Below are positions 10,526-34,516 of a stretch of 64,000 bases of DNA, in pieces. Below the pieces are notes generated by a model, which was not told the origin of the DNA, did no database searches, and saw nothing but the letters and a program-made list of their open reading frames with translations. The position numbers were made by a program, and so were the translations under genes. This DNA is from Arthrobacter sp. SLBN-100. Its GTDB lineage: Bacteria > Actinomycetota > Actinomycetes > Actinomycetales > Micrococcaceae. The DNA is taken from the NCBI RefSeq assembly GCF_006715305.1, contig NZ_VFMY01000001.1, positions 3,162,001 to 3,226,000 of the forward strand, given 5' to 3'. Position 1 is the first letter of the stretch; each line of letters begins with the position of its first letter.

Positions 10526-11818
10526 ATGCTTCTCGAAAGAGACCTCATCCAGTCCGTCGGCTTCCGCAACGTCACCGAGGGCGGGCGTACCACCGGCTTC
10601 CAGTTCCGCGTCCGGATGCCTTCCTACCGGGGAATGGCCGCGTCGCTCATCGACGGCATTGCGGTCCGCGTAGGCAACATCGTCGACGTCGGCCCTGCCG
10701 TTCCCCTGTGGACCTTCGGTGGGCGGACCTACACCCTGCAGCAGCTCTGGGAAAGCGACGGCGTGCGCTGGCCCCTGGAGGAAGCGGCGGTAGTGACCGT
10801 TCCGTTCGACGGCGGCCTGCCGCAGGGTGTCCATGAGCTCACCATCGAGCTGCGGCTGCGGATGTCCTACATACCTGTGGAGCACCAGCCCACCGTCCAC
10901 CGCGTCAGCCGTGCGGTGACGCTGGGGCCGGAGGGCGGTGAGGGCACCTTCCGCTACGGCGTTTCGCTCTACAGCTACATGGGCGACTACGGCACCGTGA
11001 TGGACCTGGAGAGCGCCCTGGCGTCCGTCGCCGATGTGGGGGCCACCGGCGTCGAGATCCTTGGCGAGGGCCACATCCCCAACTATCCGGAACCCTCCCC
11101 GGCCTGGGTTGACCAATGGTTCAGCCTGCTGGAGAAGTACTCGCTGGAGCCTACAAACTACGGATCCTGGATCGACACCCGGCTGCACCCGGGCCGGAGC
11201 ATGACGGTTGCCGAGGGTGCAGAGGCGCTGCAGCGGGATCTGCGGCTTGCCCACCGGCTGGGCTTCGGCTTCGTGCGGCCCAAGATCGGCGTTGTTTCCA
11301 GCGACCTGGTTCCGGACCCTATCTGGACCGAATCGGTGGAACGTTCCCTTGACCTGGCCCATGAACTGGGGATCATCATCTGCCCTGAGATCCACTCGCC
11401 CACGCCCATCAAGCACCCCGTCGTCGAGGACTACATCGGCCTCATCGAACGCACCGGAACAAAAAACTTCGGCCTGCTCATCGACACCGGAATTTTCCAG
11501 GACCGGCCCATCCCGCTGCGCGAAGGCGAGACCCGCGAAACCCGGCCCGCCTTCCTGGACGGCATCGGCGTCGACCCCGCCGACTTCACTGACATTGCGC
11601 AGTACGTGGTGTTCATCCAGGCGAAGTTCCACGACATCAACGAGCAACTGGAGGACCAGCAGATTCCCTGGCTGCCCGTGCTCAAGGCCCTCAAGGACGC
11701 CGGCTACACCGGCTACCTCTCCAGCGAATACGAAGGCGAACGCACCCTGTGGCGGGCCATCGAGCAGGTACGCCGGCAGCACTCCTTGATCCGTCGCATC
11801 GCCGGCGAACTTTCCTAG
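10526..11818 (+). CDS. fused beta-alpha C-glycoside deglycosidase-like protein
   Basis: 430 aa with two modules. Residues 1-135 form a beta-rich domain like the small CGD beta subunit (DUF6379 type: FRVRMPSYRG, WPLEEAAVV, RLRMSYIP). Residues from about 141 form a xylose-isomerase-like TIM barrel like the alpha subunit (RYGVSLYSY, PEIHSP, LLIDTGIF, SSEYEGER). CGD complexes are known to cleave the C-C bond of 3-keto C-glycosides using a divalent metal. Metal-ligand positions read Glu (PEIHS), Asp (IDTG), Gln instead of the usual His (FIQAKF) and Glu (SEYEG), so chemistry or specificity may differ. It diverges from the ThuA gene; RBS and spacing fit ATG 10526. Confidence 0.75.
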   Translation: MLLERDLIQSVGFRNVTEGGRTTGFQFRVRMPSYRGMAASLIDGIAVRVGNIVDVGPAVPLWTFGGRTYTLQQLWESDGVRWPLEEAAVVTVPFDGGLPQGVHELTIELRLRMSYIPVEHQPTVHRVSRAVTLGPEGGEGTFRYGVSLYSYMGDYGTVMDLESALASVADVGATGVEILGEGHIPNYPEPSPAWVDQWFSLLEKYSLEPTNYGSWIDTRLHPGRSMTVAEGAEALQRDLRLAHRLGFGFVRPKIGVVSSDLVPDPIWTESVERSLDLAHELGIIICPEIHSPTPIKHPVVEDYIGLIERTGTKNFGLLIDTGIFQDRPIPLREGETRETRPAFLDGIGVDPADFTDIAQYVVFIQAKFHDINEQLEDQQIPWLPVLKALKDAGYTGYLSSEYEGERTLWRAIEQVRRQHSLIRRIAGELS

Positions 11819-11850
11819 ATTCATTCCTCCTCCCAGCAGAGAGAACAACC

Positions 11851-13329
11851 ATGCCCAACGGACTTCTTGACGATTCAAGCCTCCGCACCCATCCGGAGGG
11901 ACTCGCCCTGGCCCTGACGCTGCCGTGGTACCGGAGCCTGTGGCTCTCTTCGGTCTCCAGCCTGCGGCTCACCGTTGATGGGCAGGACGTTCCCACCGAG
12001 AACCTCACCCTGGAACTCGGCGGCGTCCGGTATGCGCTTCCGGATCTGCAGGCACACAGCGAAACTCTCTGGTACCTGCAGGAGCACCCCCTGCTGATCG
12101 CCAAGAGGGATACCCCTGTGGCCCTGGGCGAGCAGCACACCATCCAGCTCATCGGGGAGCTGCGCCTGCCCTACATGCAGATCGCCCCGGGCCAGGACGG
12201 CGGTCCAGGGATGTATGTCCCCAACTTCGTGAACCAGACACTGGAGCTGGCCGTCACGGACAGGGCAGCTTCGGTTCCTGAATTGACGACGGCGCTCACG
12301 CCGCCTCCGCCGAAGGCTGAGGACGATCCGTTCTCGCTGGGGCTCACCCTGTACTCGGCAAGTGCCGAGTTCCGGGCCGGGTGGTACGACTTCGACGGCC
12401 TGCTGAACAGGGTGGCGGAGCTGGGCATCGGCCCCGGCATCGAGATCGTTGCCTCCCAGGTCCTGCCGACCTATCCGAATGTCACGGACAACTTCGCCCG
12501 TTCCTGGCACGAGGCCTTCGACAAGCACGGCTTCACCGCCAGCTCCTTCGGCGCGAACCTGGACATGGGCCGGCGCCGGGAGCGGGACATGACACCGGAC
12601 GAGGAATACGAGTTCACGCAGACGCTCTTCCACGGCGCCAAGAAACTCGGCTTCCCGCTGGTCCGCATCCAGAGTGCGAAGCCGGAACTGCTGCGCCGGC
12701 TGCTGCCGCTCGCCGAGGACCTGGAGCTCAAGCTTGCCTATGAAATCCACGCACCGCTGGGACCAAACTCCCCGGAGATCATGAAGGTCCGCGACGTGTA
12801 CGCGGAGCTGGATTCGCCGCTGCTGGGCTTCGTGGCCGATTTCTCCTCCACCATGCACAGCATGTCTCCCACGCTCCTGCGGGCCGTCCGCCGTGCCGGA
12901 CTCGACGACGAAGCCGTCCAGAAGCTGCAGGGCATCTGGGCCACCGACGCCCCGATGCGGGCGCGGCAGGAGGAGTTCATCGGCTACCTGCGGGCACGGG
13001 ACTTCGATCCTGCCCGCCTTGGTTCCTTCGCGCACCTGGCCTTTAACATGCACGGGCACGTCAGCCCAAAGGAGTGGGCGGACATCATGCCGCAGATCAT
13101 GCACGTCCACGCGAAGTTCTACGACATTGATGACCAGGGCAACGAGCCCGCCATCGACTACCCGGAACTCGTCCGCGTGTTCGTCGAGGGCGGCTACCGC
13201 GGCTACTGGTCCAGCGAGTGGGAGGGCCATGCCTTCGCCGAGCTTGGCGAGGTGGATCCGCTGCTGCTGGTCCGCAAGCAGCACGACCTCATCCGCGAGA
13301 GCATACGGTCCACGCTGGCATCAGCCTGA
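11851..13329 (+). CDS. fused beta-alpha C-glycoside deglycosidase-like protein (second copy)
   Basis: 492 aa from ATG 11851; a longer in-frame reading starts inside the previous gene. Residues 1-138 are a CGD beta-like domain with LPWYRSLWLS and LPYMQIAP. A Pro-rich linker (PPPPKAEDD, about 151-159) leads to a TIM-barrel alpha domain from about 162. Metal-site motifs are complete: YEIHAP (Glu), VADFSST (Asp), HVHAKF (His), SSEWEGH (Glu). NLDMGRRRERDMTPDEE and the 'FSSTMHS' loop are shared almost word for word with the stand-alone alpha gene at 21803, and the N-domain with the stand-alone beta gene at 23618. It lies 32 bases after the first fusion, so they are co-transcribed. A terminator follows. 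Confidence 0.78.
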   Translation: MPNGLLDDSSLRTHPEGLALALTLPWYRSLWLSSVSSLRLTVDGQDVPTENLTLELGGVRYALPDLQAHSETLWYLQEHPLLIAKRDTPVALGEQHTIQLIGELRLPYMQIAPGQDGGPGMYVPNFVNQTLELAVTDRAASVPELTTALTPPPPKAEDDPFSLGLTLYSASAEFRAGWYDFDGLLNRVAELGIGPGIEIVASQVLPTYPNVTDNFARSWHEAFDKHGFTASSFGANLDMGRRRERDMTPDEEYEFTQTLFHGAKKLGFPLVRIQSAKPELLRRLLPLAEDLELKLAYEIHAPLGPNSPEIMKVRDVYAELDSPLLGFVADFSSTMHSMSPTLLRAVRRAGLDDEAVQKLQGIWATDAPMRARQEEFIGYLRARDFDPARLGSFAHLAFNMHGHVSPKEWADIMPQIMHVHAKFYDIDDQGNEPAIDYPELVRVFVEGGYRGYWSSEWEGHAFAELGEVDPLLLVRKQHDLIRESIRSTLASA

Positions 13330-13350
13330 GCCTCCACTGCGAATGCCTCG

Positions 13351-13377
13351 GTGCCCGTCCGTTCAGCGGACGGGCAC
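13351..13377. terminator. hairpin terminator between convergent genes
   Basis: Perfect 11-base arms GTGCCCGTCCG and CGGACGGGCAC around the loop TTCAG. It lies between the stop of the fused CGD gene (13329) and the convergent LysR stop (13404), so it could serve both strands. The following T-run is short. Confidence 0.7.
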
Positions 13378-13403
13378 TGAGCCCTTTAAGCGCACCAGGC
13401 GTT

Positions 13404-14348
13404 TTACGGGACGTCCTTGGCGGCAGCGGCGGCAACGATATCGGCAGCCTCCTTGAAGAGGCCCCGCATCCACTCATGCTCCGAATCGCGGTTGTGCACC
13501 GGGTGCCACCACAGGGCGTTAACCAGCGGCGTGGCATCGAAGGGCAGCGGCAGGACCCGCACCCCGCCCACACGCAGCGCGAACGGTATCAGCGCCGCCT
13601 GGATAAGCGCGATCCGGTTGGTTCCCACCACAAAATGCGGCAAGGACTGAAAGCTCTCCACCACCACGTCCACGCGCGGCTCAACACCGAGCTGCATGAT
13701 CTGGCGTTCGGCCGACGTCGAGGCAGACCGGGTCTGGTAGGTCATCACCCACGGAAGTTCAGCGATGTTCTCCATGGTGATTTTTTCGCCGACGGCGTCA
13801 TTGGAGGAAGAGACGACGGCCACCCATCCGTCCCGCCACAGGTCCAGGTAGGGGAGCCCGGAAAGGAAACCGTGGGGAATCACCATGCCGTCCACGGAGC
13901 GAAGGCGGTTGGCCGCGTCCTCGACCACCATCGGGTTGTGCAGCATGAACCGGAACCGGACGCCCGGAGCGCGCTCGGCCGCAAGCTCGGAAACAACCCG
14001 GCCAACGGTAGTAAAGCCGTAATCGGAGCCGTAGATGGAGAACTCGCGCTCGGACTCGCTGGGCTCCCATGTGGCCTGGCTCTCGAAGACGCGCCGGGCC
14101 GCTTCAAGCGCGGTGGTGGTATGCTCGGCCAGCCGCAGGGCGAAAGGTGTGAGCTCGTAGGCATTGCCGCGGCGGGCCAGGATGGGGTCCCCGAAGTGGG
14201 ACCGCAGGCGCGCCAGCGAAGCGCTCAGCGCCGGCTGGCTGAGGTGGAGCCGCTCGGCCGCCCTCGTCACGCTCCGCTCGGTAATGAGGGCATCCAGCGA
14301 GATCAGCAGGTTGAGGTCGAGCCGGGAAAGCAGGACATTATTCGTCAC
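13404..14348 (-). CDS. LysR-family transcriptional regulator, NodD-like
   Basis: About 314 aa from a GTG at 14348 (N-terminus TNNVLLSRLDLN); an upstream ATG at 14405 would add 19 residues. The N-terminal winged helix is typical of the NodD-like branch: DALITERSVTRAAERLHLSQPA. The C-terminal effector-binding domain contains SEREFSIYGSDYG, close to the second LysR in this window (36 kb). NodD-like LysR proteins often sense aromatic compounds such as flavonoids, which would suit a flavonoid-glycoside locus, but that is inference. It diverges from the sugar ABC operon. Confidence 0.85.
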   Translation of the reverse strand: MTNNVLLSRLDLNLLISLDALITERSVTRAAERLHLSQPALSASLARLRSHFGDPILARRGNAYELTPFALRLAEHTTTALEAARRVFESQATWEPSESEREFSIYGSDYGFTTVGRVVSELAAERAPGVRFRFMLHNPMVVEDAANRLRSVDGMVIPHGFLSGLPYLDLWRDGWVAVVSSSNDAVGEKITMENIAELPWVMTYQTRSASTSAERQIMQLGVEPRVDVVVESFQSLPHFVVGTNRIALIQAALIPFALRVGGVRVLPLPFDATPLVNALWWHPVHNRDSEHEWMRGLFKEAADIVAAAAAKDVP

Positions 14349-14583
14349 GGCACGGCGATCTTTCAACGGTGAACTTTCGTCCCGCCAGTGTATCAGCGGC
14401 ATCAATAGGTTCGGTGGGATGCATCATATCCTCCGATGCGCCCTCAGCTTTCGCGGACCTCCGCGAGACTTATGTCTGGCATCGGCAAGACTTATGTGCG
14501 TTTTCTGCACATCTCCTGCATACTGATGAGTGACCGGGGTCACGACTCCCGGATTTTCGACAATGAAGTCAGAAAGGCTGGAC
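14349..14583. promoter_or_regulatory. control region of the CGD-locus ABC operon
   Basis: Two tandem copies of the regulon motif begin CTTATGT at 14469 and 14491, exactly 22 bases apart, on the plus strand. Further down, a perfect inverted repeat GTGACC-GG-GGTCAC (14530-14543) may be a second operator, and TGCATACT (14516-14523) could be an extended -10. An AAAGG site precedes ATG 14584. The region also contains the start side of the divergent LysR gene. Confidence 0.5.
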
Positions 14584-15879
14584 ATGACACAGCACCGTCG
14601 CTATTCGGGCCTGAAGGCCGGCGCCCTCGCCGTTCCCACCCTCGCAGCCCTCGTTCTTACCGGCTGCTCGGCCCCCGCCGGCAATAACTCTTCCTCCGAA
14701 GGAGGGCCGCAGGAATTCTCCCTGACCTTCTCCACGTCCAACACCATCGAGAGCCCCTTCAAGGCACTCGGTGAGAAGTACATGGAAACCCACCCGGATG
14801 TGAAGATCACCTTCAATCCGCAGCCCAACGATTCCTATGACCAGACCGTGCGCACGCAGCTCCAGGCTGGCAACGCCTCAGACGTACTGGTCACGATGCC
14901 TGGCTCGGGCACCGGCCGCAGTATCCTGCAGCTCGTCGAGGCGGGCTTCCTTGAGCCGCTGGACGACGCCGCCAAGGAACTGGTTCCCGAGGGCAGCGAA
15001 GCCCTTTTCGGAAAGGATGGCAAGGTGTACGGCCAGGCCCCGGAAATCACGGTGGTCGGACTGGTCGCAAACGAGACTGCTGCCAAGGCTGGCGGTATTT
15101 CTGAGTTCCCCTCGGACTTCGGCGCTCTCCAGGAACAGTGCAAGGCGCTCGGATCTGCAGGTAAGTCATTCTTCGCCGTGGCCGGTTCTGCTGCGCCGAA
15201 CACCGGCCTGATGGCGATGTCCCTCGGGGCTACCCGCGTTTACGCCGAGGACCCCAAATGGAACGAAAAGCGAGCAGCCAAGGAGGTTACGTTCGCCGAC
15301 TCGGACGGCTGGAAGTCATCCCTCGAGGCCGTCAAGCAGCTGAACGATGCGGGCTGCTTCCAGAAGGGTGCGGCCGGTGCAGGCTTTGACGCCATCACCA
15401 AGGGCCTGGCCAGCGGAACCTCGATCTCCGGCTTCATCCCCGGCCCCAGCTGGAAGCAGCTGAAGAGCGCAGCTGCAGACGCCGATTTCGCTGTCCGCGC
15501 CCTGCCCGGCGAAGGCTCGGACGAGAGCTTCGTCTATGCCAGTGCAAACTACGCATTCTCCATCAATGCCGCCTCCAAGAACAAGGAAGCTGCGAAGGCA
15601 TTCCTGGATTGGGCCGCCGAGGCTGAGCAGACTAAGGAGTTTGCCGAAATGGACGGCGCCTTGCCGGTTACCGGCTTGGACAGCTACGACTTCGACGGCA
15701 GCGCCTACAAGAATGTGGGTGACCTGATCAAGGAGGGCAAGTACGGTCCGCTGCCCAACAGCCAGTGGCCGAACTCCGCGGTCTACGACGCACTCGCCAC
15801 CGGCGTCCAAGGCCTCATCACCGGCCAGAAGGATGTTGACCAGGTCCTGCAGGCCATGGACGCAGCCTGGGGCCAGTAA
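14584..15879 (+). CDS. sugar ABC transporter substrate-binding lipoprotein (CUT1)
   Basis: 431 aa from ATG 14584, preceded by AAAGG at 6-base spacing; an in-frame upstream start would spoil the signal peptide. Residues 1-30 form a signal peptide with the lipobox LTGC, so the mature protein is a lipid-anchored extracellular receptor. The rest is a family-1 solute-binding fold (FKALGEKYMETHPDVKITF). It captures a carbohydrate or glycoside and passes it to the two permeases that follow. As first gene of a 12-gene unit with GMC oxidase and CGD genes, the ligand is probably a glycoside (inference). Confidence 0.9.
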   Translation: MTQHRRYSGLKAGALAVPTLAALVLTGCSAPAGNNSSSEGGPQEFSLTFSTSNTIESPFKALGEKYMETHPDVKITFNPQPNDSYDQTVRTQLQAGNASDVLVTMPGSGTGRSILQLVEAGFLEPLDDAAKELVPEGSEALFGKDGKVYGQAPEITVVGLVANETAAKAGGISEFPSDFGALQEQCKALGSAGKSFFAVAGSAAPNTGLMAMSLGATRVYAEDPKWNEKRAAKEVTFADSDGWKSSLEAVKQLNDAGCFQKGAAGAGFDAITKGLASGTSISGFIPGPSWKQLKSAAADADFAVRALPGEGSDESFVYASANYAFSINAASKNKEAAKAFLDWAAEAEQTKEFAEMDGALPVTGLDSYDFDGSAYKNVGDLIKEGKYGPLPNSQWPNSAVYDALATGVQGLITGQKDVDQVLQAMDAAWGQ

Positions 15880-16892: not shown

Positions 16893-16895
16893 ACA

Positions 16896-17869: not shown

Positions 17870-18646
17870 ATGTACCAGCTCGCACCCAACATCGACCTTT
17901 TGTTCTCAGAAGCAGGCTCCAGCGCCGCCGACCGTGTCCGCGCCGCAGCCGCCGCCGGATTCGATGCCGTAGAAATGTGGGGCCCCACGGGGAAGGACAT
18001 TCCCGCCCTCAAGGAAGCCCTCGAAGAAACCGGAGTCCAGCTCACCGCCCAGTTGGCAGAGCCGCGGATGCAGTTCATGATCCCGCCCAAGGACCACGCG
18101 CCGTTCTACACCGGACTGGATGCAGGCGTCGAAGTGGCCCGCCAGCTCGGCTGCCCCCGGATAGTGGTGGGCAGCGGCACCGGCTTCGGCGGCCGCAAGC
18201 GGCAGGACCAGCTGGACGAGCTGATCGAAATCTTCAGCAAGGGCGTAGCGCACATCGAGGGTTCCGGCATCACGCTGGTCCTCGAACCGGTGAACATTCG
18301 TGTTGACCATCCTGGAGCTCTCCTGGACCGGACGTCGGAAGCTGTCTACGTCGCCAAGGGCGTCAACTCGCCCAGCTTCGGTGTCCTCTACGACCTCTAC
18401 CACTCCACCGTTGAGGGCGAGGACGTGGCGGCAGAGCTCGCCAATGCCGGGGACCTCATCAAATACGTGCAGGTGGCCGATGCTCCGGGCCGCGGCGAAC
18501 CCGGTTCCGGCTCCATTGACTGGCCCGCCCGGTTTGCCGACCTGCGGAACAGCGGTTACACCGGCCCCATCGGCCTCGAGTACTACCCCACCATCGACTC
18601 GGCAAAGTCGGTGCGCCGCATCCAGGAACTGGTGGCGGGACGGTGA
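17870..18646 (+). CDS. hydroxypyruvate-isomerase-like TIM-barrel protein
   Basis: 258 aa, the usual size for the hydroxypyruvate isomerase/Otn family. Metal-site positions can be read as Glu in LVLEPVN, Asp in VLYDLYHS and Glu in IGLEYYP. The third position, in KYVQVADAPG, carries Gln rather than the His seen in some relatives. Within this locus it probably isomerises or epimerises a keto-sugar or enolone product rather than hydroxypyruvate; no glyoxylate-pathway genes are adjacent. The AGGAG site before ATG 17870 is good. The stop overlaps the GTG start of the GMC gene. Confidence 0.8.
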   Translation: MYQLAPNIDLLFSEAGSSAADRVRAAAAAGFDAVEMWGPTGKDIPALKEALEETGVQLTAQLAEPRMQFMIPPKDHAPFYTGLDAGVEVARQLGCPRIVVGSGTGFGGRKRQDQLDELIEIFSKGVAHIEGSGITLVLEPVNIRVDHPGALLDRTSEAVYVAKGVNSPSFGVLYDLYHSTVEGEDVAAELANAGDLIKYVQVADAPGRGEPGSGSIDWPARFADLRNSGYTGPIGLEYYPTIDSAKSVRRIQELVAGR

Positions 18647-20202
18647 GCGGTAACCGCTATCCCACCACAGTTGACGTCGCCATCGTCGGCAGCGGCCCCA
18701 CGGCATCGGCCTACGCGCGGATCCTCAGCGAGGAAGCGCCAGGCGCCACTATTGCAATGTTCGAGGTGGGCCCCACCGTCAGCAATCCGCCCGGGGCGCA
18801 CGTCAAGAACATCGAGGACCCTGACCGCCGCAGCCTCGCCCAGCGGGCCTCGGAAGGCCCCGGTGCGGGGGCGGCAACGGTGAACTCGCCGGGCGCCGTC
18901 AAGAGCGGCGAACGCCGCGCGCGCCCTGGCACCTACCTGCTGCAGGACGGCTACGCCTTCCCGGGCGAGGACGGCATGCCCGTCGCGGCCATGTCCAGCA
19001 ATGTGGGCGGCATGGCCGCCCACTGGACCGCCGCCTGCCCCCGCCCGGGAGGCAAGGAGCGCATCCCGTTCCTGCCGGACCTGGAAGAGCTCCTTAAGGA
19101 TGCGGACCGCCTTTTGGGCGTCACTACCTCCGCCTTCGAAGGCGCCCCCTTTTCGGACCTGGTCCGCGAACGCCTCGCCACGGTAGTGGATCAAGGCCGT
19201 AAGCCTGCCTGCCGCGTGCAGCCCATGCCCCTTGCTGTACACCGGCGGCAGGACGGCGGCCTCGTCTGGTCCGGCTCCGACGTCGTGATGGGGGAGGTCA
19301 CCCGCGAAAACCCGCAGTTTCAACTTTTTGATGAATCGCTGGTGACCCGTGTGCTGGTGGAGGCCGGCATCGCTGCCGGCATCGAAGTCCAGGACCGCCG
19401 CAGCGGTGAGAATTATCAGGTGGCCGCCCGTTACGTTGTGGTGGGGGCGGACGCCCTGCGCACACCGCAGCTGCTGTGGGCTTCCGGGATCCGGCCCGAC
19501 GCCCTGGGCCGCTACCTCAACGACCAGGCGCAGGTGGTGTTCGCGAGCAGGCTCCGCGATGTCCAGCCTGAGAACGCGCCGGCAGCCGCCAACGGCGCGC
19601 TCAGTGAACAGAGCGGAGTGGCCTGGGTTCCCTACACGGACGAGGCGCCCTTCCACGGCCAGATCATGCAGCTGGATGCTTCCCCGGTTCCCCTGGCCGA
19701 TGATGATCCCATTGTCCCGGGCTCCATCGTGGGGCTGGGCCTGTTCTGCGCCAAGGACCTGCAGCGCGAGGACCGGGTGGCGTTCGACGGCGATACCCCT
19801 GACTCCTACGGGATGCCCGCCATGCGCATCCACTACCGCCTCACAGAGCGGGACCGCGAGGTACTGGACCGCGCCAGGCAGGAAATTGTCCGCCTGGGCA
19901 AGGCTGTGGGCGAACCGCTGGACGAGCGCCCCTTCGTTCTGCCCCCTGGAGCATCACTCCACTACCAGGGCACCACGCGCATGGGTGAGACGGACGACGG
20001 CGAGAGCGTCTGTTCGCCGGACAGCCAGGTGTGGCAGGTCCCCGGCCTCTTTGTGGCCGGCAATGGCGTTATCCCCACCTCGACAGCGTGCAATCCCACG
20101 CTGACGTCGGTAGCGCTCGCCGTGCGGGGAGCACGGAAAATCGCTGAAGAAGCCAACAGCGCTTTACTTATGTCTGAATCAGACAATAGACTGACTAAAT
20201 AA
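18643..20202 (+). CDS. GMC/pyranose-oxidase-like flavoprotein, candidate C-glycoside 3-oxidase
   Basis: 519 aa from GTG 18643. The N-terminal FAD-binding motif is VDVAIVGSGPTASAYA. NVGGMAAHWTAACP matches the segment that carries the flavin-linking His in pyranose 2-oxidases. The C-terminal active site has ASLHYQGTTRMG (His) and TACNPTLTSVALAVRGA (Asn). In characterised C-glycoside catabolic clusters a GMC enzyme of this kind (CarA) oxidises the sugar C3 hydroxyl and so acidifies the proton removed by the deglycosidase. Position directly before beta and alpha CGD genes supports that role here. No signal peptide is visible, so it is cytoplasmic. Confidence 0.8.
   Translation: MSGNRYPTTVDVAIVGSGPTASAYARILSEEAPGATIAMFEVGPTVSNPPGAHVKNIEDPDRRSLAQRASEGPGAGAATVNSPGAVKSGERRARPGTYLLQDGYAFPGEDGMPVAAMSSNVGGMAAHWTAACPRPGGKERIPFLPDLEELLKDADRLLGVTTSAFEGAPFSDLVRERLATVVDQGRKPACRVQPMPLAVHRRQDGGLVWSGSDVVMGEVTRENPQFQLFDESLVTRVLVEAGIAAGIEVQDRRSGENYQVAARYVVVGADALRTPQLLWASGIRPDALGRYLNDQAQVVFASRLRDVQPENAPAAANGALSEQSGVAWVPYTDEAPFHGQIMQLDASPVPLADDDPIVPGSIVGLGLFCAKDLQREDRVAFDGDTPDSYGMPAMRIHYRLTERDREVLDRARQEIVRLGKAVGEPLDERPFVLPPGASLHYQGTTRMGETDDGESVCSPDSQVWQVPGLFVAGNGVIPTSTACNPTLTSVALAVRGARKIAEEANSALLMSESDNRLTK
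20167..20189 (+). promoter_or_regulatory. regulon operator overlapping the GMC gene end
   Basis: The site begins CTTATG and contains the perfect palindrome TGTCTGA-A-TCAGACA (20171-20185), ending AATAG. It is the most symmetrical copy of the 23-bp motif. It lies inside the last codons of the GMC gene, about 100 bases before the beta-subunit start at 20288, so an internal promoter there would be under the same control. Confidence 0.55.
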
Positions 20203-26260: not shown

Positions 26261-26278
26261 CTGTCGTTTGCCCATTAC

Positions 26279-26537: not shown

Positions 26538-27551
26538 TCAACCGCCGACGCCCTGGGCCGCTGGCGCTGCATGCGCGAGTGCTGCCCCTGCCAGTGCGAG
26601 GTGGTTGCGCGTCATCTCCGTGGGATCGTCCTGCAGCCATTCGTGGCCGCCCCATTCGCTGGTGAGGGTACCGCTGAAGCCGTTGCTGCCAAGGAGGGCG
26701 CCCAGGTCCCGCAGCGGCTGCGTGACCCGCCCGCCGTCGTCGTGCAGGTCCCAGAACTTCAGGTGGAAGGCGCCCACCATGGGGAGGATGACCTGCAGGT
26801 CCGCTGCGTCACTGCGGCCAAAGCGGATGAGCAGGTTCATAAAAAGGGTGTGGATCCGCGGGGGCACGTTTCCTGAGCGGAGCAGGGCGGTGACGGCGTC
26901 GATGGTGGCGGGGTCCCGCCAGTCATTCTCCAGGCGCCCCATGAAGTCCTGAGGCATGCCGCCCCGGCGCAGTTCTTCGAGGTAGGTGACGGGAAGGGCG
27001 GGCATCAGCATGCTGATGTCCACGAGCACCCGCACGTGGTCATCTGCGAGCGCACCTATCGCTTCGAGGGCAGGTTCGACGGCGGCGCTGCCGGGGGCCT
27101 GCTGCCCCTGGATTTCCTCAAACAGCACCAGGTCGAGCTCATGCAGCAGCGGCTGGACCAGAGTGAGCAATTCGGTGCCGGCCTGGCCGATCGGGAGCCG
27201 GATTCCGCTGGCTCCAACGCGGTGCGCGGCATGGATCTGGGGAACCAGGAAATCCAGGCGCTGCTGCAAGGGGCGGCGTTCCATCGGCGTGAAGTCGTCC
27301 AGGCTCGCGCCCACGATACTGACAGATCCGCCCTTCGCCGCCAAGGCATCCCGCAGCTCGTCAACTTCGGCATCGTGGGGGGCGGGGAAGGACCGCCACA
27401 GCAGTCCGGGCTCGAGTTCTATCCTCTTCACCACTGAATCCGCGATGCCGGTGACGATGTCCTGGGCGGTCCGGCGGGCGGCGATGATGTCCGGGGTCCA
27501 GTTGAAGGAGCTGGCGCAAAGCGTCCAGCTGCTTGGAATTTCGGGAGCCAT
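26538..27551 (-). CDS. divergent CGD alpha-like TIM-barrel protein
   Basis: 337 aa. The sequence diverges strongly from the other alpha-like proteins, but the active-site skeleton is recognisable: Glu in LFEEIQGQ, Asp in VLVDISML, His in FHLKFWDL and Glu in TSEWGGHEW. The H-x-K-F block is kept. It is transcribed away from the beta-like gene at 27621 across a 69-base spacer that holds a regulon operator, so the two could form a complex encoded by divergent genes. It converges on the gene at 25213 across the 32-bp repeats. Confidence 0.68.
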   Translation of the reverse strand: MAPEIPSSWTLCASSFNWTPDIIAARRTAQDIVTGIADSVVKRIELEPGLLWRSFPAPHDAEVDELRDALAAKGGSVSIVGASLDDFTPMERRPLQQRLDFLVPQIHAAHRVGASGIRLPIGQAGTELLTLVQPLLHELDLVLFEEIQGQQAPGSAAVEPALEAIGALADDHVRVLVDISMLMPALPVTYLEELRRGGMPQDFMGRLENDWRDPATIDAVTALLRSGNVPPRIHTLFMNLLIRFGRSDAADLQVILPMVGAFHLKFWDLHDDGGRVTQPLRDLGALLGSNGFSGTLTSEWGGHEWLQDDPTEMTRNHLALAGAALAHAAPAAQGVGG

Positions 27552-27610: not shown

Positions 27611-27620
27611 GATGGAAGCC

Positions 27621-28067
27621 ATGTTGGAAACAGCTGTGCGCGGAGATGCGCTGACCGCCACTCCGGGAGGCTTCGAACTGCGCGTCGGCCTACCGTGGAT
27701 TCGCTCAATGCCGCTGTCCAGCATTGCCGGCCTGGCGGTGGAGGTGGACGGCGTTCCGGTGGCACCAGGGGAGTTGGGGGTGATGCTCGGGTCCCGCCGC
27801 GTGTCCCCTGGCGTCCTGCAGGAAGAGCAGGGCTGGTGGTTCGTACAGGACAGGCTCGTTCTGGCGGGCCGGCGCGCGCTGTCACACGGGACACACGCCG
27901 TCGCCGTCGACTTCCAGCTGATGGTGCCGTACCTGCAGGCACGGCCCGGCTCGCCCCTGGTCCTGCCGTTCCATCTGGAGGCCCGGCTGGAACTGAACGG
28001 AAAGCCGGTGCCCAGTGTCTCCCGGGACGTCGCCTGGGCAGGCGCGCCCGGAGCTGTGGAATCTTAG
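27621..28067 (+). CDS. CGD beta-subunit-like protein (divergent)
   Basis: 148 aa from ATG 27621, chosen because AAAGGA lies 8 bases upstream; ATG 27612 is in frame but too close to that site. Core segments LRVGLPWIRSMPLSSIAG, QGWWFVQDRLVL and FQLMVPYLQA align in order with the beta proteins at 20288 and 23618 (PWYR..., WW/W...P, L..PY...). This is weaker than among the other copies, but the pairing with a divergent alpha-like gene supports it. The last 4 bases overlap the convergent ROK gene. Confidence 0.65.
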   Translation: MLETAVRGDALTATPGGFELRVGLPWIRSMPLSSIAGLAVEVDGVPVAPGELGVMLGSRRVSPGVLQEEQGWWFVQDRLVLAGRRALSHGTHAVAVDFQLMVPYLQARPGSPLVLPFHLEARLELNGKPVPSVSRDVAWAGAPGAVES

Positions 28068-29326
28068 GCGGGAACTGCGACGCGTTCCGGCGAGGGGCGG
28101 CCATCAGCAAACCAGCGCGGGAAGGTGACATCGAACAGCTGCTCGCGCGCCAGCTCAGCTCCGCCGCGGAGGGGTTCGCGCTCGTCGGCCACGGAGAGGG
28201 TGATCGTCAGGTCGCGTGTGGCAAGCGGCAGCGACAGTTCGTAGACCCGCTGCCGCACTTCCGCCAGGAATACCTCGCCGGCCGACCCCATGGCGCCGCC
28301 GATGACGATGACGCTGGGGTTGAACATGTTCACCAGGGCAGAAATGGTCTCACCCGCTACGCGCGCCGACTTCTGAATCAAGGTGATGGCCAGGGGGTCG
28401 CCGGACCGGACCGCAAGGGTGATCTCCTCGAGGGTCAGTGCTCCCTTTTTCACTACCCCAGCCATGGAGCTGTTGGCGCCCTCCTTGATGGCCTGTTCCG
28501 CATCCCTGACCAGGGCCCAGCCACTGGCCACGGCTTCCAGGCAGCCGATCTTTCCGCAGCGGCACTGGGCAGTGGAGTCCAGGACCCGGACATGGCCAAT
28601 ATCGCCCGCGGCGCCGTTGGCACCGCGGTGGATCCTGCCCTGGGACAGCAGTCCTGCACCGATTCCCGAACCGATCTTGCAGTAGATGAGGTCCACAAGG
28701 GAATCGCGGCGGCGGGCACGCTCGCCGAGGGCAAGCAGGTTGACGTCGTTATCCACCCAGACCGGCGCGTTGAAGCGCTCCTCGAAGGGGGTTCGAACGT
28801 CGAAGCCGTTCCACCCGGGCATGATGGGAGGCGACACGGGCTGCCCGGAGGCAAAGTCGACCGGACCGGGAAGGCCCACCACCACAGCCCAGACGGGCAC
28901 TTTGGAGTCCTTTTTCAGCACGTCGTCCACGAGGGCCAAGACTGCCTCAATGGTCTTTTCGGGGCCCCGGGAAATATCCCAGGCGCGGTGCGTGTGCTCC
29001 AGGACGTCGCCGTCGAGCGCCGTCAAACCCACCCTGATATGGGCCGCTCCGAGGGCGCAGATGATGATCCGCCCCTGCTCGGCTCGAAAGCGCAGGGTCC
29101 GGGGCGCACGGCCGCCGGAGGAAGCGCCGAATTCCCCCTCGCCGAGGAAGCCGAACTGGATGGCCTGGTCCACGCGCTGGCTGACAACGCCCCTGCCCAG
29201 CCCGGTAACCTTACCGATTTCGGGCCGGGTGGTTGCCTCGCCCGTCCGCACCAGATTGACGATCCTCAAGAGGCTCGTCACTTCATCGGTCTGGGCTCCG
29301 AAGCGGAGGGTGGACTCTGTCGTCAT
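28064..29326 (-). CDS. ROK-family transcriptional repressor
   Basis: 420 aa from ATG 29326 (an in-frame TTG at 29335 is possible). An N-terminal helix-turn-helix (residues 15-75: TTRPEIGKVTGLGRGVVSQR) precedes a sugar-kinase-like ROK domain. The domain has the zinc-binding CRCGKIGCLE and the ATP/sugar loop GAAGDIGHV. ROK repressors respond to sugars or sugar phosphates. It sits between two copies of the shared 23-bp motif (27588 and 29398) and is the best local candidate for the factor that binds them, hence the likely master regulator of the 10-34 kb region (inference). Confidence 0.87.
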   Translation of the reverse strand: MTTESTLRFGAQTDEVTSLLRIVNLVRTGEATTRPEIGKVTGLGRGVVSQRVDQAIQFGFLGEGEFGASSGGRAPRTLRFRAEQGRIIICALGAAHIRVGLTALDGDVLEHTHRAWDISRGPEKTIEAVLALVDDVLKKDSKVPVWAVVVGLPGPVDFASGQPVSPPIMPGWNGFDVRTPFEERFNAPVWVDNDVNLLALGERARRRDSLVDLIYCKIGSGIGAGLLSQGRIHRGANGAAGDIGHVRVLDSTAQCRCGKIGCLEAVASGWALVRDAEQAIKEGANSSMAGVVKKGALTLEEITLAVRSGDPLAITLIQKSARVAGETISALVNMFNPSVIVIGGAMGSAGEVFLAEVRQRVYELSLPLATRDLTITLSVADEREPLRGGAELAREQLFDVTFPRWFADGRPSPERVAVPA

Positions 29327-29397
29327 GGTTAACAATTCTCACACATCAGAACCTACTAAGGCGCGGCTGAACGCGACTATAGCCAGAAGTTCCCTGA

Positions 29398-29420
29398 CTT
29401 ATGAATAATAGTGACAGAAG
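29398..29420 (+). promoter_or_regulatory. regulon operator upstream of the second Gfo/Idh gene
   Basis: CTTATGAATAATAG followed by TGACAGAAG matches 14 of 23 positions of the palindromic copy at 20167, with both outer ends conserved. It lies in the 107-base divergent spacer between the ROK gene and the Gfo/Idh gene. This would allow autoregulation. Confidence 0.42.
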
Positions 29421-29433
29421 AGGGGAGGCGACA

Positions 29434-30474
29434 ATGCCTTGGAGCGTAGGGATTATTGGGGCCGGGCCGGGTGTCGCGGCACTTCACGTGCCGGTGCTCG
29501 GGCGGCTTGCGAACCTGTTCAAGGTGGTGCATATCGCCGATGCGGGAAGCGGGCGGGCCCGGGGCCTGGCCGAAAGGCATGGCGCCCGCTGGTCCGAGGG
29601 GGAGGCGGCCCTGTTGGCGGACCCGGCCGTGGATCTGGTTGCCATCTGCAGCCCGCCCAGTGAACATGCCCGCCAAATCCTGGCGGCACTGAGCTCGGGA
29701 AAGCGCGCTTTCTTCTGCGAGAAGCCGCTGGCCACCAGCCGGGAGGAAGCGGACGATGTTGTTTCTGCATGCCGGGCCGCAGGCGCAATCCTGCTGGTGG
29801 GGACGAACCACCTGTTTGACGCCGCGTGGGGGCGCGCGAAGCACCATCTTGTGGCCCTTGAGGGCCGCGTGCAGGCCATCTCGGTGACGCTGGCGCTTCC
29901 GCCGAATGACAGGTACCACCGGCTGGTGGTCGAGGGCGGTCCCTTCCAGGCTGCGAGGCGGGGACGCCCGGACCTTGGCAACCCTGCCGTGGCGGCCGGC
30001 GTCCTGCGGCAGTTGCTGACCGGCCTCGCGATTCATGACCTTCCTGCGGTGAGGGACATCGCGCCCGGCATCGACGAGGTTGTCTATGCGCGGGTTGTTT
30101 CCCCGATCGGCTACCTGGTGGGGTACCGGGCCGGCGGAGTTCTTGTCCAGTTGGCGCTCACCATGCTTCCCGAGGGGCCGGATGCGCTGTGGCGGATGAC
30201 CATCGCCACGTCCCACGACCGCATTGAAGTGAACTTCCCGCCCGCCTTTGTCCATGCCGGAAGCGCTGCCATCCGGGTGCGAAGCGTGGACGGGCAGTGG
30301 ACGGAGTATCCGCGCGATCAGGAAGACGGCTATGTGGCCGAGTGGCGCTCGCTTGCCTCACTCCTTCAAGGCGATGCCCCCGTGGAGTACGACGAACTGC
30401 TGGCTGACGCACACCATGCCATCGACCTGGCGGACGCTGCCGCAGCCAAAATCCTTGAGGGGGTGCCCCAATGA
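29434..30474 (+). CDS. Gfo/Idh/MocA-family oxidoreductase (second copy)
   Basis: 346 aa from ATG 29434, preceded by GGGGAGG. The Rossmann motif is VGIIGAGPGVAALH and the CEKPLA motif is at about residue 93. The C-terminal domain is less typical: the usual DxGxHxxD catalytic element reads LTGLAIHDLPAVRD. It is distant from the gene at 24013 and probably acts on a different keto-sugar or glycoside. The stop overlaps the next gene's ATG. Confidence 0.82.
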   Translation: MPWSVGIIGAGPGVAALHVPVLGRLANLFKVVHIADAGSGRARGLAERHGARWSEGEAALLADPAVDLVAICSPPSEHARQILAALSSGKRAFFCEKPLATSREEADDVVSACRAAGAILLVGTNHLFDAAWGRAKHHLVALEGRVQAISVTLALPPNDRYHRLVVEGGPFQAARRGRPDLGNPAVAAGVLRQLLTGLAIHDLPAVRDIAPGIDEVVYARVVSPIGYLVGYRAGGVLVQLALTMLPEGPDALWRMTIATSHDRIEVNFPPAFVHAGSAAIRVRSVDGQWTEYPRDQEDGYVAEWRSLASLLQGDAPVEYDELLADAHHAIDLADAAAAKILEGVPQ

Positions 30475-31262
30475 GTCAAGGACGAGCGGTCAACGTCTTC
30501 ACGGCGTTGCCTGCCTACACGGCCGCTGTTGCCGAGCTTCCCCTTGGTGCTGCCCTCGCGGACGGCGTGAAGGGGGCGGTGGCAGTAGTGCCCGGAACCG
30601 GCGACTGGTGGCAGGGCATGCTGGCCGCCCGCGCCGGGGGAGCGTGCGCCGTGGTGCTTGCGGATCCTGTGGTCCTTCCGGGGGGAGCTGGTGAATCGGA
30701 GCGCTGGCCCGGCGGCATCCCGGTAATCGTTGAACGCCCCCGCCTCCGCCCCGATGTTGTTGCCGATGCAGTCCGGGCAAGGCGCGGCAGTTCGGCCCGT
30801 ATGGTCACTGTTGAATGCGCCGGTCCCGCTGCCGGTCTTGACGGCATCATCCTCGACGGCGTTGGCTGGATCCGTTCCCTGGCCGGAGGGCCGTTGAAGT
30901 TCAGGGCGGGCATTGCCACCGCGCGGGGCAGGATCGCACTTCTGGATTCGGAGGGCGCCCGTGGTTCGGTCCCCGCCACTGTAATGGGGACTCCCCTTGG
31001 AGGCCTTCACGCCGGAGGCCTGCTCCAGGTGCTGGCCCTCGGCGAGGTGCGGACTGAAGTCACCGTGGACGAGCCTGCCGGGCTGACCCGGGTGGAGACC
31101 TTCACTGGCGAAGGGGCGGTGCGGGCTCCCGAGCGCTTCGAATCGTCCGCGCGCCTGGCGCTCCGCCGGGCTCTCGAGGCCTGCCTGGCGGATGGGCCCG
31201 TAGCTGACCTGGACGAACTGCTTCAGGATGCGGTCGTGACCCGGGCCTTGCTCGATGCATAG
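30471..31262 (+). CDS. protein of unknown function, coupled to Gfo/Idh
   Basis: 263 aa, not recognised. It is Ala/Gly-rich and predicted soluble, without signal peptide or membrane segment. The first half alternates hydrophobic strands and helices (AVAVVPGTGDWWQGML, CAVVLADPVV, GIPVIVERPRL), like a Rossmann-type domain lacking a clear GxGxxG. The second half contains GTPLGGLHAGGLLQVLALG and resembles the substrate-binding half of Gfo/Idh proteins. It overlaps the upstream Gfo/Idh stop by ATGA, so it may be its non-catalytic partner subunit. This is a structural guess only. Confidence 0.6.
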   Translation: MSQGRAVNVFTALPAYTAAVAELPLGAALADGVKGAVAVVPGTGDWWQGMLAARAGGACAVVLADPVVLPGGAGESERWPGGIPVIVERPRLRPDVVADAVRARRGSSARMVTVECAGPAAGLDGIILDGVGWIRSLAGGPLKFRAGIATARGRIALLDSEGARGSVPATVMGTPLGGLHAGGLLQVLALGEVRTEVTVDEPAGLTRVETFTGEGAVRAPERFESSARLALRRALEACLADGPVADLDELLQDAVVTRALLDA

Positions 31263-31434: not shown

Positions 31435-32931
31435 ATGCCACTTTCGCCTTTGAGACTCCGTCTCCTTGTTGTTTCCCTGCTCTCGGTCTCCTTCCTCGGG
31501 GCCCTGGACCACACGGTTGTGTCCACGTCCCTCGCCACCATTGCCGGTGAGCTGGGGGCACTCCAGCTGATGAGCTGGGTGGTTGTGGGCTACACCCTCG
31601 CAAGCACCGTGCTGCTGCCGGTACTCGGCAAGCTGGGTGACGTGCTGGGAGCCCGCCGGATCTTCATCTGTTCGCTGGTGATGTTCCTGGCCGCCTCACT
31701 GGCCTGCGGCTTCGCCACGGACATGGCCTGGCTCATTGGCGCGCGCGTGCTGCAGGGCATGAGTTCAGCAGGCCTGCAGTTGATGTCCCAGACCATCATT
31801 GCCCGCGTCACCACCCAGCGGGAACGTCCGCGTTACATGGCCATCATTGGCGCCGCTTTCCCCATCGCCATCCTGGTAGGCCCCGTTCTTGGCGGTGCCA
31901 TCACTGACTATTGGGGCTGGCAGTGGGTCTTCTGGATCAACATTCCGGTGGGAGTGGCGGCCCTGGGCCTTGCGCTTATCGCCGTCCCCCACCTGGAGCC
32001 CGGCCCCATGCCCCGCCACTTCGATGTTGCCGGGGCTGCGGTGTTCACCACCGCCCTCGTGGCGCTCGTTCTCACCGTTACCTGGGCTGCCGAACGCAGC
32101 GCAGGTCCCGCCACCGCTGCCGCGCTCGCCGTCAGCATCGTCGGCTTCGTTGCCTTCTTCTTTATCGAGCGCCGCGCCGCCGAACCCATCGTGCCGCTCC
32201 ATGTCTTCGCCAACCGGACCATCGCGGCAGGAACCGCACTCTCGGCGATTATCGGCGTCGGCCTCTTCTCCATCACTGCCTACCTGCCCACGTACTTCCA
32301 GATGGCCTACCAGACCACCGCCACCGTCTCCGGCCTCGTCCCTATCGCCACGGTGTTCGGGATGCTGATCAGCAACGTGCTGACCGGATGGTTGGCCAGC
32401 CGGACGGGGCAGTACCGGGTTTTCCCGATCCTGGGAACCTCGATGGGAGCCGCCGGGCTTTTTGTGATGGCCATGCTGCCGGCGGGCCTTCCACTGTGGG
32501 TTCCCATGATGGTGATGGCTGTGGTGGGGATGGGCACGGGGGCGTTTATGAGCCTCATCGTCGCCGTGGTCCAGGGCGCTGCCCCGGCCAGCCAGACCGG
32601 CACCATCACGGCAACGATCAACCTGGTGCGGCAAGTGGGGTCCACAGTGGCGACGGCGGTGATCGGCGCGGTGATCGGTTCCAGCGTCGCGGCTCTTTTG
32701 CCGGCAGGCCTCGATGCTTCCACCCTGACGCCGCAACTGGTCCACGGGGCCGCGCCGGCAATCCAAGCCAGCGTGGCACAGATCTACACTTCAGTCTTCA
32801 CCCCCATTTTCATCGCACTGGCGGCCACCTACGCCGTGGGGATTGTCGCGGCGGTCCTGCTTCCGCACGGCCGCCTCTCCGACGAACCCGTTCCCGCTCC
32901 CAACACGCCGTCCGAATCCCTCTCGGCCTGA
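31435..32931 (+). CDS. MFS transporter, DHA2 (EmrB/QacA) type
   Basis: 498 aa with about 14 hydrophobic segments. The first segment contains LGALDHTVVSTSL (the DHA2 'D-x-T-V-V' motif) and segment 5 the antiporter motif AILVGPVLGGAITDYWGW. These proteins usually export drugs or phenolic compounds by proton antiport. Preceding a GMC oxidoreductase in a glycoside locus, it could export a toxic aglycone or import a glycoside. The start at ATG 31435 has a weak ribosome binding site. The 172-base region upstream holds the promoter and operator noted above. Confidence 0.85.
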   Translation: MPLSPLRLRLLVVSLLSVSFLGALDHTVVSTSLATIAGELGALQLMSWVVVGYTLASTVLLPVLGKLGDVLGARRIFICSLVMFLAASLACGFATDMAWLIGARVLQGMSSAGLQLMSQTIIARVTTQRERPRYMAIIGAAFPIAILVGPVLGGAITDYWGWQWVFWINIPVGVAALGLALIAVPHLEPGPMPRHFDVAGAAVFTTALVALVLTVTWAAERSAGPATAAALAVSIVGFVAFFFIERRAAEPIVPLHVFANRTIAAGTALSAIIGVGLFSITAYLPTYFQMAYQTTATVSGLVPIATVFGMLISNVLTGWLASRTGQYRVFPILGTSMGAAGLFVMAMLPAGLPLWVPMMVMAVVGMGTGAFMSLIVAVVQGAAPASQTGTITATINLVRQVGSTVATAVIGAVIGSSVAALLPAGLDASTLTPQLVHGAAPAIQASVAQIYTSVFTPIFIALAATYAVGIVAAVLLPHGRLSDEPVPAPNTPSESLSA

Positions 32932-32947
32932 TTTCAAAGGAGACATC

Positions 32948-34516
32948 ATGTCCAACCCCACTATCGCCATCGTCGGCAGCGGGCCCATCGGTTCCGCCTA
33001 CGCACGCGTGCTCCTGGAGCAGGTCCCCGACGCGCGGGTGGTGATGTTCGAAGCCGGGCCGCAGCTCACCGGGGTCCCCGGCGAGAGCGTCCGCAACATC
33101 CCCGACCCTGCCGAGAAGGCGCGTGCCCGTGAAATGTCCCAGGGGCCGCAGGCCGGCGCCTACCGGGAATCGCTCGGCATCCCGGCATCCACCGTCACGG
33201 AGGGCATGTTCACCGCCCGCCAAGGGACCCACCTCCTTGACTTCGGCGGCGCGGGCTCAGCCCACGCCCCCTCTTTCCCGGCCGCGGCTGCCGCCACCAA
33301 CGTGGGCGGCCAGGGTGCCCACTGGACCTGCGCCACGCCGTCGCCCGCCTTCAGCGAGAAGATCCCCTTCATCGCTGATGACGAGTGGGACGGGCTGGTT
33401 GAGGACGCCAAGCAGCTGCTGCACGTCCACAGCGCCGCCTTCGCGGATTCCAAGGTCGGCGAAGCCATTCGTACCCTCCTCGACGAAGAGTTCGGCGCGG
33501 AGCTGCCGGACGGCTACGGGGTGGGCACCCTTCCGGTGGCCGGGGACCCGCAGCCGGACGGGTCTGTACGCTGGGCGGGTGCCGACGTCGTCCTCGGACC
33601 GCTGATCGATAAGGAGAGCCCCCTCTCGAAGCAGTTCGAACTGCGTGACCTCACCCTGGTCCGCCGCGTTGAGCTGGAGGGACGCCGCGCCACCGGCGTC
33701 ACCGTCCAGGACCTGCGCACGGGGGAGGCCTCCTTCGTGGCAGCTGACATCGTTGTGGTGGCAGCGGATGCCTTCCGCTCCCCGCAGCTCCTGTGGGCAT
33801 CGGGCGTCCGTCCGAAGGCACTGGGCCATTACCTGACCGAGCATCCCGTGGTCATCTCCACGGTGGCGCTGGATGCCGAAAAGATGGGACGCTACGCGCG
33901 GGAAGAGGACCTCAAGGCCGAGCTGGCACGCCGCTCACTCAATCCGGCGGATCCGGTGGCGGCAGTGAACCGCATCCCGTTCTCCGAACCCGAGCACCCC
34001 TTCTCGGTCCAGGTGATGTACACCGAGACCACGCCATTTCCTATGGAGCCGGGCACCCCGTACTCGGAGAACCGCTGGGGCTACGTCAACATGGGCTATG
34101 GCCTGCGCAAGCACCCGCGCTACGAGGACGCCGTCACCTTTGACGACAACGAGCCGGACTACCGCGGCTTCCCGAACATGACCATCGAATATGCGCTCAC
34201 TGAGCGGGAGGAAACGGAGATCGCTCAGGCTACCGAGCGGCTGCGACGTGCAGGCAAGGCCCTTGGCGTCTTTGTTGCCGAGCCACGCCTCATGCCGAAC
34301 GGCTCCAGCCTGCACTACCAGGGCACCATGCGGATGGGCGCAACCAACGACGGCACCTCCGTGGCGGATCCGTGGTCGCGGGTGTGGGGCTACGAGAACC
34401 TGGTGGTGGGCGGCAACGCGCTCATTCCGACGGCGACGGCCATGAACCCCACCCTGATGAGCGTTGCCCTCGCGGTGCGCGGTGCGCGGAAGGTGGCCGA
34501 GGAACTGGGTTCCTGA
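32948..34516 (+). CDS. GMC/pyranose-oxidase-like flavoprotein (second copy), candidate glycoside 3-oxidase
   Basis: 522 aa from ATG 32948 after AAAGGAG; an upstream in-frame start lies inside the transporter gene. The FAD motif is IAIVGSGPIGSAYA. NVGGQGAHWTCATP is the pyranose-oxidase flavin-His segment; the active-site pair appears as SSLHYQGTMRMG and TAMNPTLMSVALAVRGA. It shares this architecture with the protein at 18643, but the middle (substrate) domain differs: residues about 300-420 include a YTETTPFPMEPGTPYSENRW stretch absent there. It probably oxidises a different glycoside. It lies 16 bases after the MFS stop. Confidence 0.8.
   Translation: MSNPTIAIVGSGPIGSAYARVLLEQVPDARVVMFEAGPQLTGVPGESVRNIPDPAEKARAREMSQGPQAGAYRESLGIPASTVTEGMFTARQGTHLLDFGGAGSAHAPSFPAAAAATNVGGQGAHWTCATPSPAFSEKIPFIADDEWDGLVEDAKQLLHVHSAAFADSKVGEAIRTLLDEEFGAELPDGYGVGTLPVAGDPQPDGSVRWAGADVVLGPLIDKESPLSKQFELRDLTLVRRVELEGRRATGVTVQDLRTGEASFVAADIVVVAADAFRSPQLLWASGVRPKALGHYLTEHPVVISTVALDAEKMGRYAREEDLKAELARRSLNPADPVAAVNRIPFSEPEHPFSVQVMYTETTPFPMEPGTPYSENRWGYVNMGYGLRKHPRYEDAVTFDDNEPDYRGFPNMTIEYALTEREETEIAQATERLRRAGKALGVFVAEPRLMPNGSSLHYQGTMRMGATNDGTSVADPWSRVWGYENLVVGGNALIPTATAMNPTLMSVALAVRGARKVAEELGS

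Follow-up and report, generated by a model that had tools for sequence, protein, structure and literature searches.

The question raised by this locus is how many C-C bond-cleaving enzymes it encodes. It is an island of ∼24 kb at positions 10526–34516 of a 64,000-nt window, the window being the whole stretch of DNA that was analysed, on contig NZ_VFMY01000001.1 of Arthrobacter sp. SLBN-100. The original prediction, made from the sequence, was that the island holds five alpha-like triosephosphate isomerase (TIM) barrels and five small beta-like domains of the C-glycoside deglycosidase (CGD) type, forming parallel deglycosylation complexes. The barrels and domains were all located as claimed and are named here F1 (gene at 10526) and F2 (11851), a3/b3 (20680/20288), a4/b4 (21803/23618) and a5/b5 (26538/27612). 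It is considered probable that the whole is a glycoside catabolic island with four CGD lyases and a fifth pair, a5/b5, that most likely is not a C-C lyase.

The CGD identity of the modules was examined using profile searches and comparison with solved structures. All five small domains scored above the curated cut-off of Pfam CGDB (PF19906), confirming them as beta-type, and the nearest solved relatives of all five barrels were CGD alpha subunits. The idea that the barrels are unrelated isomerases was rejected on the basis of these relatives, and the tree described below agrees. No CGDB domain beyond the five was found in a search of the same genome. F1 matched the Microbacterium testaceum CGD, 8qrz_A, from end to end (E 2e-223), beta-alpha fusion included. 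The matches of a4 to 7dnm_A (751.8 bits) and of b4 to 7dnm_B (272.5 bits) make a4/b4 the predicted ortholog of AgCGD2 of Arthrobacter globiformis, for which cleavage of 3-keto-C-glycosides has been reported (PMC8563793; published results are given here and below from the accessible parts of the papers). The most distant module is a5, which is 25% identical to a4; its 13 best matches were all CGD alphas. With 29.8 bits, b5 passed the CGDB cut-off (27.6), and the b5 domain superposed on 7dnm_B with a TM-score of 0.82 (by target) and a root mean square deviation (rmsd) of 2.1.

The metal ligands of AgCGD2 are Glu147, Asp179, His269, Lys271 and Glu305, and its catalytic residues are His149 and Glu307 (Mori et al., PMC8563793). 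All five ligands are present in F2, a3 and a4. F1 keeps four; its His269 is Gln, as in 9 of 9 F1 rows and in the solved CGD 8qrz_A, and its alignment shows a gap at the position of the AgCGD2 lid. The catalytic His149 and Glu307 are present in all four of F1, F2, a3/b3 and a4/b4, as is the equivalent of Tyr39 of the PuCGE beta subunit, which aligns with Tyr29 of b4. Among alphas other than a5 (119 rows), His149 was found in 116 of the 116 rows with a letter, the three others being short or broken pieces, and Glu307 in every row. Among betas other than b5 (124 rows), Tyr was found in 117 of the 118 rows with a letter at that position. Thus F1, F2, a3/b3 and a4/b4 look like working CGD lyases. 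Their pairing is indicated by the fusions in F1 and F2, by b4 corresponding to the known partner of the AgCGD2 alpha subunit and by the overlap of the b3 gene with the start of the a3 gene. The other unfused intact pair, a3/b3, is an unconfirmed candidate for AgCGD1. In AgCGD1, Asn248 is reported as conserved and Met249 as changed to Ala or Gly (Mori et al., PMC8563793). The residues of a3 at these positions are Gly and Leu in this alignment, so that the assignment would fit only if the alignment were off by a few residues.

The fifth pair is different. In 64 a5 rows (63 loci plus the window) the metal ligands were retained, Glu147 and Asp179 in all 64, His269 in 63 and both Lys271 and Glu305 in 62. 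At the catalytic positions, His149 was replaced by Gln in 64 of 64 rows and Glu307 by Gly in 62, the rows deviating at 269, 271, 305 or 307 being L131 and L132, in which the frame is shifted or stops early. The position of beta Tyr39 was occupied by Ile in 58 of the 60 b5 rows with a letter (61 rows). The Gln149/Gly307 pattern with all metal ligands was also seen in all 30 rows from the same genus, a set that shares members with the 64 rows, and the pattern Glu-Gln-Asp-His-Lys-Glu-Gly was kept in the five most distant a5 rows at ∼30% identity. Hence the metal site is kept while the residues known for C-C cleavage are changed in both subunits. Replacement of the His by Ala is reported to leave 10.4% activity in PuCGD and 1.8% in MiCGD, and that of the Glu by Ala 49.8% and 1.9%, respectively (PMC8563793). 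The beta Tyr39 of PuCGE is described as specifically required for C-glycoside cleavage, Tyr39Phe causing a ∼12,000-fold loss of C-glycoside activity (Bitter et al., PMC10628242). With the catalytic base lost together with its Glu partner and the beta Tyr, a5/b5 is most likely not a C-C lyase, and the five parallel complexes of the original prediction are probably four.

Although altered, the fifth pair is maintained. Median dN/dS was 0.172 for a5 and 0.22 for b5 (NG86, tblastn-matched parts only, columns containing stops skipped). Against 28 same-genus copies, a5 gave values of 0.13–0.25, with 0.39 against the distant L035, where dS is saturated. The fifth pair is under purifying selection. 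The two subunits are encoded by split, divergent genes in Arthrobacter. In 27 of 63 relatives they lie in one open frame, a fusion being called from a single open frame without a stop; of these 27 frames, two are longer than 1,000 aa and two run up to the end of a contig, and the starts are unsure. Microbacterium hydrocarbonoxydans (L095) has such a natural fusion. A further CGD barrel lay inside the fetched stretch in 57 of the 63 a5 loci.

The profile and structure-relative matches also bore out the surrounding genes that had been predicted, namely two pyranose-oxidase-like GMC enzymes, ABC and MFS transporters, Gfo/Idh and isomerase-like genes. The product of 18643–20202 matched 7qf8, which we take to be the PsG3Ox entry, over its full length (1092 bits over 518 residues) and is the predicted PsG3Ox ortholog. 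The barrel encoded by 25213–26217 matched the hydratase 8ro4 with E 4e-37. This gene content suggests a full route of uptake, C3 oxidation, beta-elimination, glucal hydration and reduction. Plant glycosides, mainly C-glycosides, would be imported by the ABC set and the MFS transporter and their sugar oxidised at C3 by the glycoside 3-oxidase, together with the second GMC enzyme, 32948–34516. The four two-part Mn-type CGD lyases (F1, F2, a3/b3 and a4/b4), with their differing pockets, would then release the aglycone and 2-hydroxy-3-keto-glucal by beta-elimination. The latter may be hydrated to 3-keto-glucose by the 25213–26217 barrel and reduced to glucose by the Gfo/Idh enzyme 24013–25200. The fifth pair would be a conserved offshoot of the CGD fold acting on keto-sugar intermediates of the same pathway. 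An oxidation, elimination, hydration and reduction order has been described for analogous operons (PMC10628242).

Several results count against this picture. At the b5 Tyr39 position, Tyr occurs in L138 and Phe in L136, both being distantly related fifth pairs. PuCGD His143Ala retains 10% activity, hence Gln at position 149 might leave some cleavage. A predicted model of a fused b5-a5 protein (pTM 0.87) could not be superposed on the fused 8qrz as one body (rmsd 18 Å, 498 columns), so that docking of the fifth pair in the CGD manner is only a possibility; the pairing of a5 with b5 is supported by the shared open frames. The a5 gene is ∼4 times less constrained than a3 and a4 (median dN/dS 0.172 versus 0.044–0.047), which also fits partial decay. 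Of the proposed pathway enzymes, the 25213–26217 barrel is closer to 2zds, a “putative DNA-binding protein” whose function is not known, than to the hydratase, and its hydratase reaction is for this reason only a proposal. The 24013–25200 Gfo/Idh protein reached 372.8 of 650 bits against levoglucosan dehydrogenase, below the NCBIfam cut-off.

What a5/b5 does instead of C-C cleavage can be considered in the light of its intact metal site. We infer that, in place of a C-C lyase, it may be a metal-dependent keto-glycoside isomerase or epimerase, with a sensor as the second choice. In ketose 3-epimerases two metal-bound Glu residues act as acid and base in proton exchange (PMC8167858). The residues Glu147, Asp179, His269 and Glu305 of a5 appear to resemble the ketose 3-epimerase set, their equivalence being drawn from the common fold. 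The same Glu-Asp-His-Glu letters occur in the CGD alphas other than F1, this being a comparison by letters rather than a position-by-position superposition, and the closest sequence and fold to a5 are not among the ketose epimerases. As for a substrate, 3-keto-nothofagin is reported to convert spontaneously to its 2-keto form, and the latter was left uncleaved by PuCGE (PMC13273386). An isomerase restoring such 2-keto compounds, or a keto-glycoside epimerase, would fit the gene context. The fullest version, in which a5/b5 is a new functional class on the CGD fold, a two-part metal-dependent enzyme returning 2-keto-C-glycosides to the 3-keto form or epimeric keto-glycosides to lyase substrates, is offered tentatively and may well be wrong.

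A ligand sensor or scaffold, that is, a pseudoenzyme working with the adjoining ROK regulator, is rather doubtful as an explanation. A ROK gene was found in 59 of the 63 a5 loci; ROK, b5 and a5 were all found in 58 loci, and 39 of these have the three genes on the same strand. The weaker constraint on a5/b5 relative to its sibling modules would also suit such a role. All five metal ligands are kept, however, and a pure binder would not need them, though the metal may still serve binding.

That every one of the five pairs acts as a C-glycoside lyase, each with its own specificity and a5/b5 by means of another base, is unlikely, since in a5/b5 three residues of tested function are exchanged jointly and with hardly an exception. 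The presumed aglycone pocket differs as well. At the position of the AgCGD2 contact Tyr17, 62 of 64 a5 rows have Phe, whereas all 115 other rows with a letter there have Tyr. Positions 123, 124 and 248 are also different in a5, although the first and last of these show variation in the other alphas too. A conserved Arg lies near position 248/249 in a5; the alignment at 123 and 248/249 is not firm, two alignments placing the a5 residues one column apart. An elimination of 3-keto-O-glycosides rather than C-glycosides would be suggested by the loss of the beta Tyr alone because PuCGE Tyr39Phe keeps its activity on 3-keto-phlorizin within 2.4-fold while C-glycoside cleavage is lost (PMC10628242). 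The O-glycoside eliminase AtOGE is, however, inactive as His134Ala (PMC10628242), and a5 lacks the corresponding His in 64 of 64 rows, making this activity improbable for a5/b5. That a5/b5 is a decaying paralog without function is very unlikely because, although it is the fastest-evolving CGD pair of the island, is split and divergent in Arthrobacter and has broken a5 frames in L131 and L132, the low dN/dS against the same-genus copies and the unchanged residue pattern in the most distant rows argue otherwise.

The origin of the five modules was considered from their distribution. The original prediction took the multiplicity for an expansion of this locus, which was not borne out. CGDB domains were found in 49 of 198 same-genus genomes (own included), with at least five in 28 of the 198, namely five in 27 and six in one. 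In a phylum-wide sample of 396 genomes, CGDB was found in five (own included), two of the four others being above the cut-off. Five CGDB domains each were present in A. globiformis NBRC 12137 (G158), whose genome also holds a5, and Pseudarthrobacter siccitolerans 4J27 (G126). The core from the glycoside 3-oxidase (G3Ox) gene to the ROK gene, a5 and b5 included, had the same order in 19 of the 21 same-genus regions fetched (G025 in part), G007 and G182 having other arrangements. Among the 19, neither an MFS nor a second GMC match appeared in the fetched stretch of G164 or G150, and G107 gave no F1 match, only an alpha 56% identical to F2. The same-genus a5 search took in 34 of the 49 CGDB-carrier genomes, and its rows overlap with those of the 63-locus set (for example, G158 is L078 and G126 is L086).

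For 32 of the 63 a5 loci, all taken from genera other than that of the window, CGDB matches per genome ranged from 2 to 6, with 13 in Naasia aerilata. Within the fetched stretches, which extend at most 10 kb either side of a5 and in several cases meet a contig end, 29 of the 63 a5 loci held only the G3Ox/a3 module, 7 only the module of the second GMC enzyme and F1-F2, 21 both and 6 neither, module names being assigned from the best-scoring window protein. A tree was built from 65 rows of >200 aa taken from 19 of the 63 loci, the window and two outgroups. F1, F2, a3, a4 and a5 formed separate clades, each spanning more than one family, with support of 99/99 for a5; some long branches meet, those of the outgroups and distant a5 rows among them, and the root is for drawing only. 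Recent local duplication was rejected, since every one of the five alphas clusters with its orthologs in other genera. Thus five modules are the normal state of a conserved island and not a local expansion, and the CGD set looks old and modular.

Some loci outside the genus were also noted. L139 (G371:C1:672000-686000), from another family of the phylum, carries four CGDB domains and three CGD-like barrels within ∼5 kb (∼4580–9283), hence multi-CGD loci exist elsewhere in the phylum. L089 (Planococcus sp. APC 4015) and L118 (Stenotrophomonas maltophilia P13) bear labels of other phyla and an island with Microbacterium-like similarity, due to contamination or transfer. In Naasia aerilata (L132/G621), where the a5 frame is broken, some of the 13 CGDB matches are equal-score pairs near both contig ends.

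Table 1. Genes of the island, with positions in the window.
Product	Position	Strand	Remark
F1, fused CGD beta-alpha protein, 430 aa	10526..11818	+	full-length relative of Microbacterium testaceum CGD 8QRZ
F2, fused CGD beta-alpha protein, AgCGD2-like	11851..13329	+	alpha 57% identical to a4; catalytic residues intact
LysR-type regulator	13404..14405	-	
ABC solute-binding protein	14530..15879	+	
Two ABC permease genes	15933-16892 and 16896-17732	+	
Hydroxypyruvate-isomerase-like TIM barrel	17870..18646	+	score below NCBIfam cut-off
Glycoside 3-oxidase, predicted PsG3Ox ortholog	18643..20202	+	7qf8 match
b3, CGD beta subunit	20288..20683	+	Pfam CGDB
a3, CGD alpha subunit	20680..21783	+	catalytic and metal residues intact
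a4, CGD alpha subunit, predicted AgCGD2 alpha ortholog	21803..22828	+	7dnm_A match
SnoaL-like protein	22839..23609	+	found in only part of the islands
b4, CGD beta subunit, predicted AgCGD2 beta ortholog	23618..24016	+	7dnm_B match
Gfo/Idh/MocA dehydrogenase, levoglucosan-dehydrogenase-like (below cut-off)	24013..25200	+	proposed 3-keto-glucose reductase
TIM barrel related to 2-hydroxy-3-keto-glucal hydratase	25213..26217	+	8ro4 match
a5, CGD-alpha-like barrel	26538..27551	-	metal site intact; His149 to Gln, Glu307 to Gly
b5, CGD-beta-like domain	27612..28067	+	Tyr39 equivalent to Ile
ROK-family regulator	28064..29335	-	
Second Gfo/Idh dehydrogenase	29401..30474	+	
Protein without Pfam or NCBIfam match, kept across islands	30471..31262	+	
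MFS transporter	31435..32931	+	
Second GMC oxidase, pyranose-oxidase-like	32948..34516	+	8qve, 397 bits

Some further features of the island and its surroundings were observed. The SnoaL-like gene, which lies between the two AgCGD2-type subunit genes, was found in 10 of 19 syntenic islands. The protein of 30471–31262 had the highest median dN/dS (0.242) among the 20 genes or domains compared. Where the hydratase-like gene and a5 converge, positions 26278–26536 hold two arrays of 32-bp tandem repeats (3.6 and 2.4 copies) with partial complementarity between them, and weaker relatives (68–79% identity) occur at five further sites in the genome. Upstream of the island, 4273–9523 encodes an enolase-superfamily enzyme, a mannitol-dehydrogenase-like protein and a PfkB kinase, possibly a sugar-acid or polyol pathway.

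Fused CGDs, CGD heterodimers, glycoside 3-oxidases and two-pair clusters are already known. No description of a five-pair island or of the Gln/Gly/Ile subfamily was found in the open-access literature, outside which most subscription papers lie; nor was any paper on 8QRZ or on DUF6379 found there, and a keto-glycoside isomerase of the kind proposed was absent from the titles and abstract beginnings of four listed open-access papers. The island suggests that soil actinobacteria may deal with various C-glycosides through a set of lyases rather than one, and modules undescribed in the literature found are present in two strains already used by laboratories. That the two subunits of a5/b5 have lost their lyase residues together, and that this loss is conserved, offers an opening to test how a C-C lyase scaffold is retooled. 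Were a5/b5 a 2-keto/3-keto isomerase, it would fill a gap, as the lyase examined did not cleave the 2-keto isomer that forms spontaneously.

The closest known systems come from the two strains mentioned. AgCGD2 (AgCarB2-C2, 7DNM/7DNN) of A. globiformis NBRC 12137 is the predicted counterpart of a4/b4; two pairs, AgCGD1 and AgCGD2, were described in that strain by Mori et al. 2021, whereas its genome has five CGDB domains. The PsG3Ox cluster of P. siccitolerans 4J27 shows synteny with the window over the whole island, its oxidase being the likely ortholog of 18643–20202. Four CGD genes (B1, B2, C1 and C2) have been reported near psg3ox, in contrast to the five CGDB domains in the genome, and two CGD pairs are reported for each of these strains (PMC8563793; PMC10646112). 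The fused CGD of Microbacterium testaceum (8QRZ, 8UN2) is, like F1, a beta-alpha fusion, F1 being one of five modules here. PurA with PurBC of Paenarthrobacter sp. No. 37 and CarA with CarBC of Microbacterium sp. 5-2b, also from soil actinobacteria, likewise combine a flavin oxidase with a CGD heterodimer (PMC12724307; PMC8563793), a likeness of description rather than of sequence, and the accessible reports give one CGD pair each, against five here. For the fifth pair, the Glu-Asp-His-Glu letters of a5 may correspond to the metal set of ketose 3-epimerases of the D-tagatose/allulose 3-epimerase type, and YcjR (6wn6), which has the same fold as a5, is a 3-keto-glucoside epimerase. The AtOGE-AtHYD-Gfo pathway of Agrobacterium tumefaciens and the levoglucosan pathway of Bacillus smithii follow the same order of oxidation, elimination, hydration and reduction (PMC10628242). 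Compared with these four-enzyme O-glycoside and levoglucosan pathways, the island starts with a flavin oxidase and its lyase step would be carried out by several CGD heterodimers or fusions.

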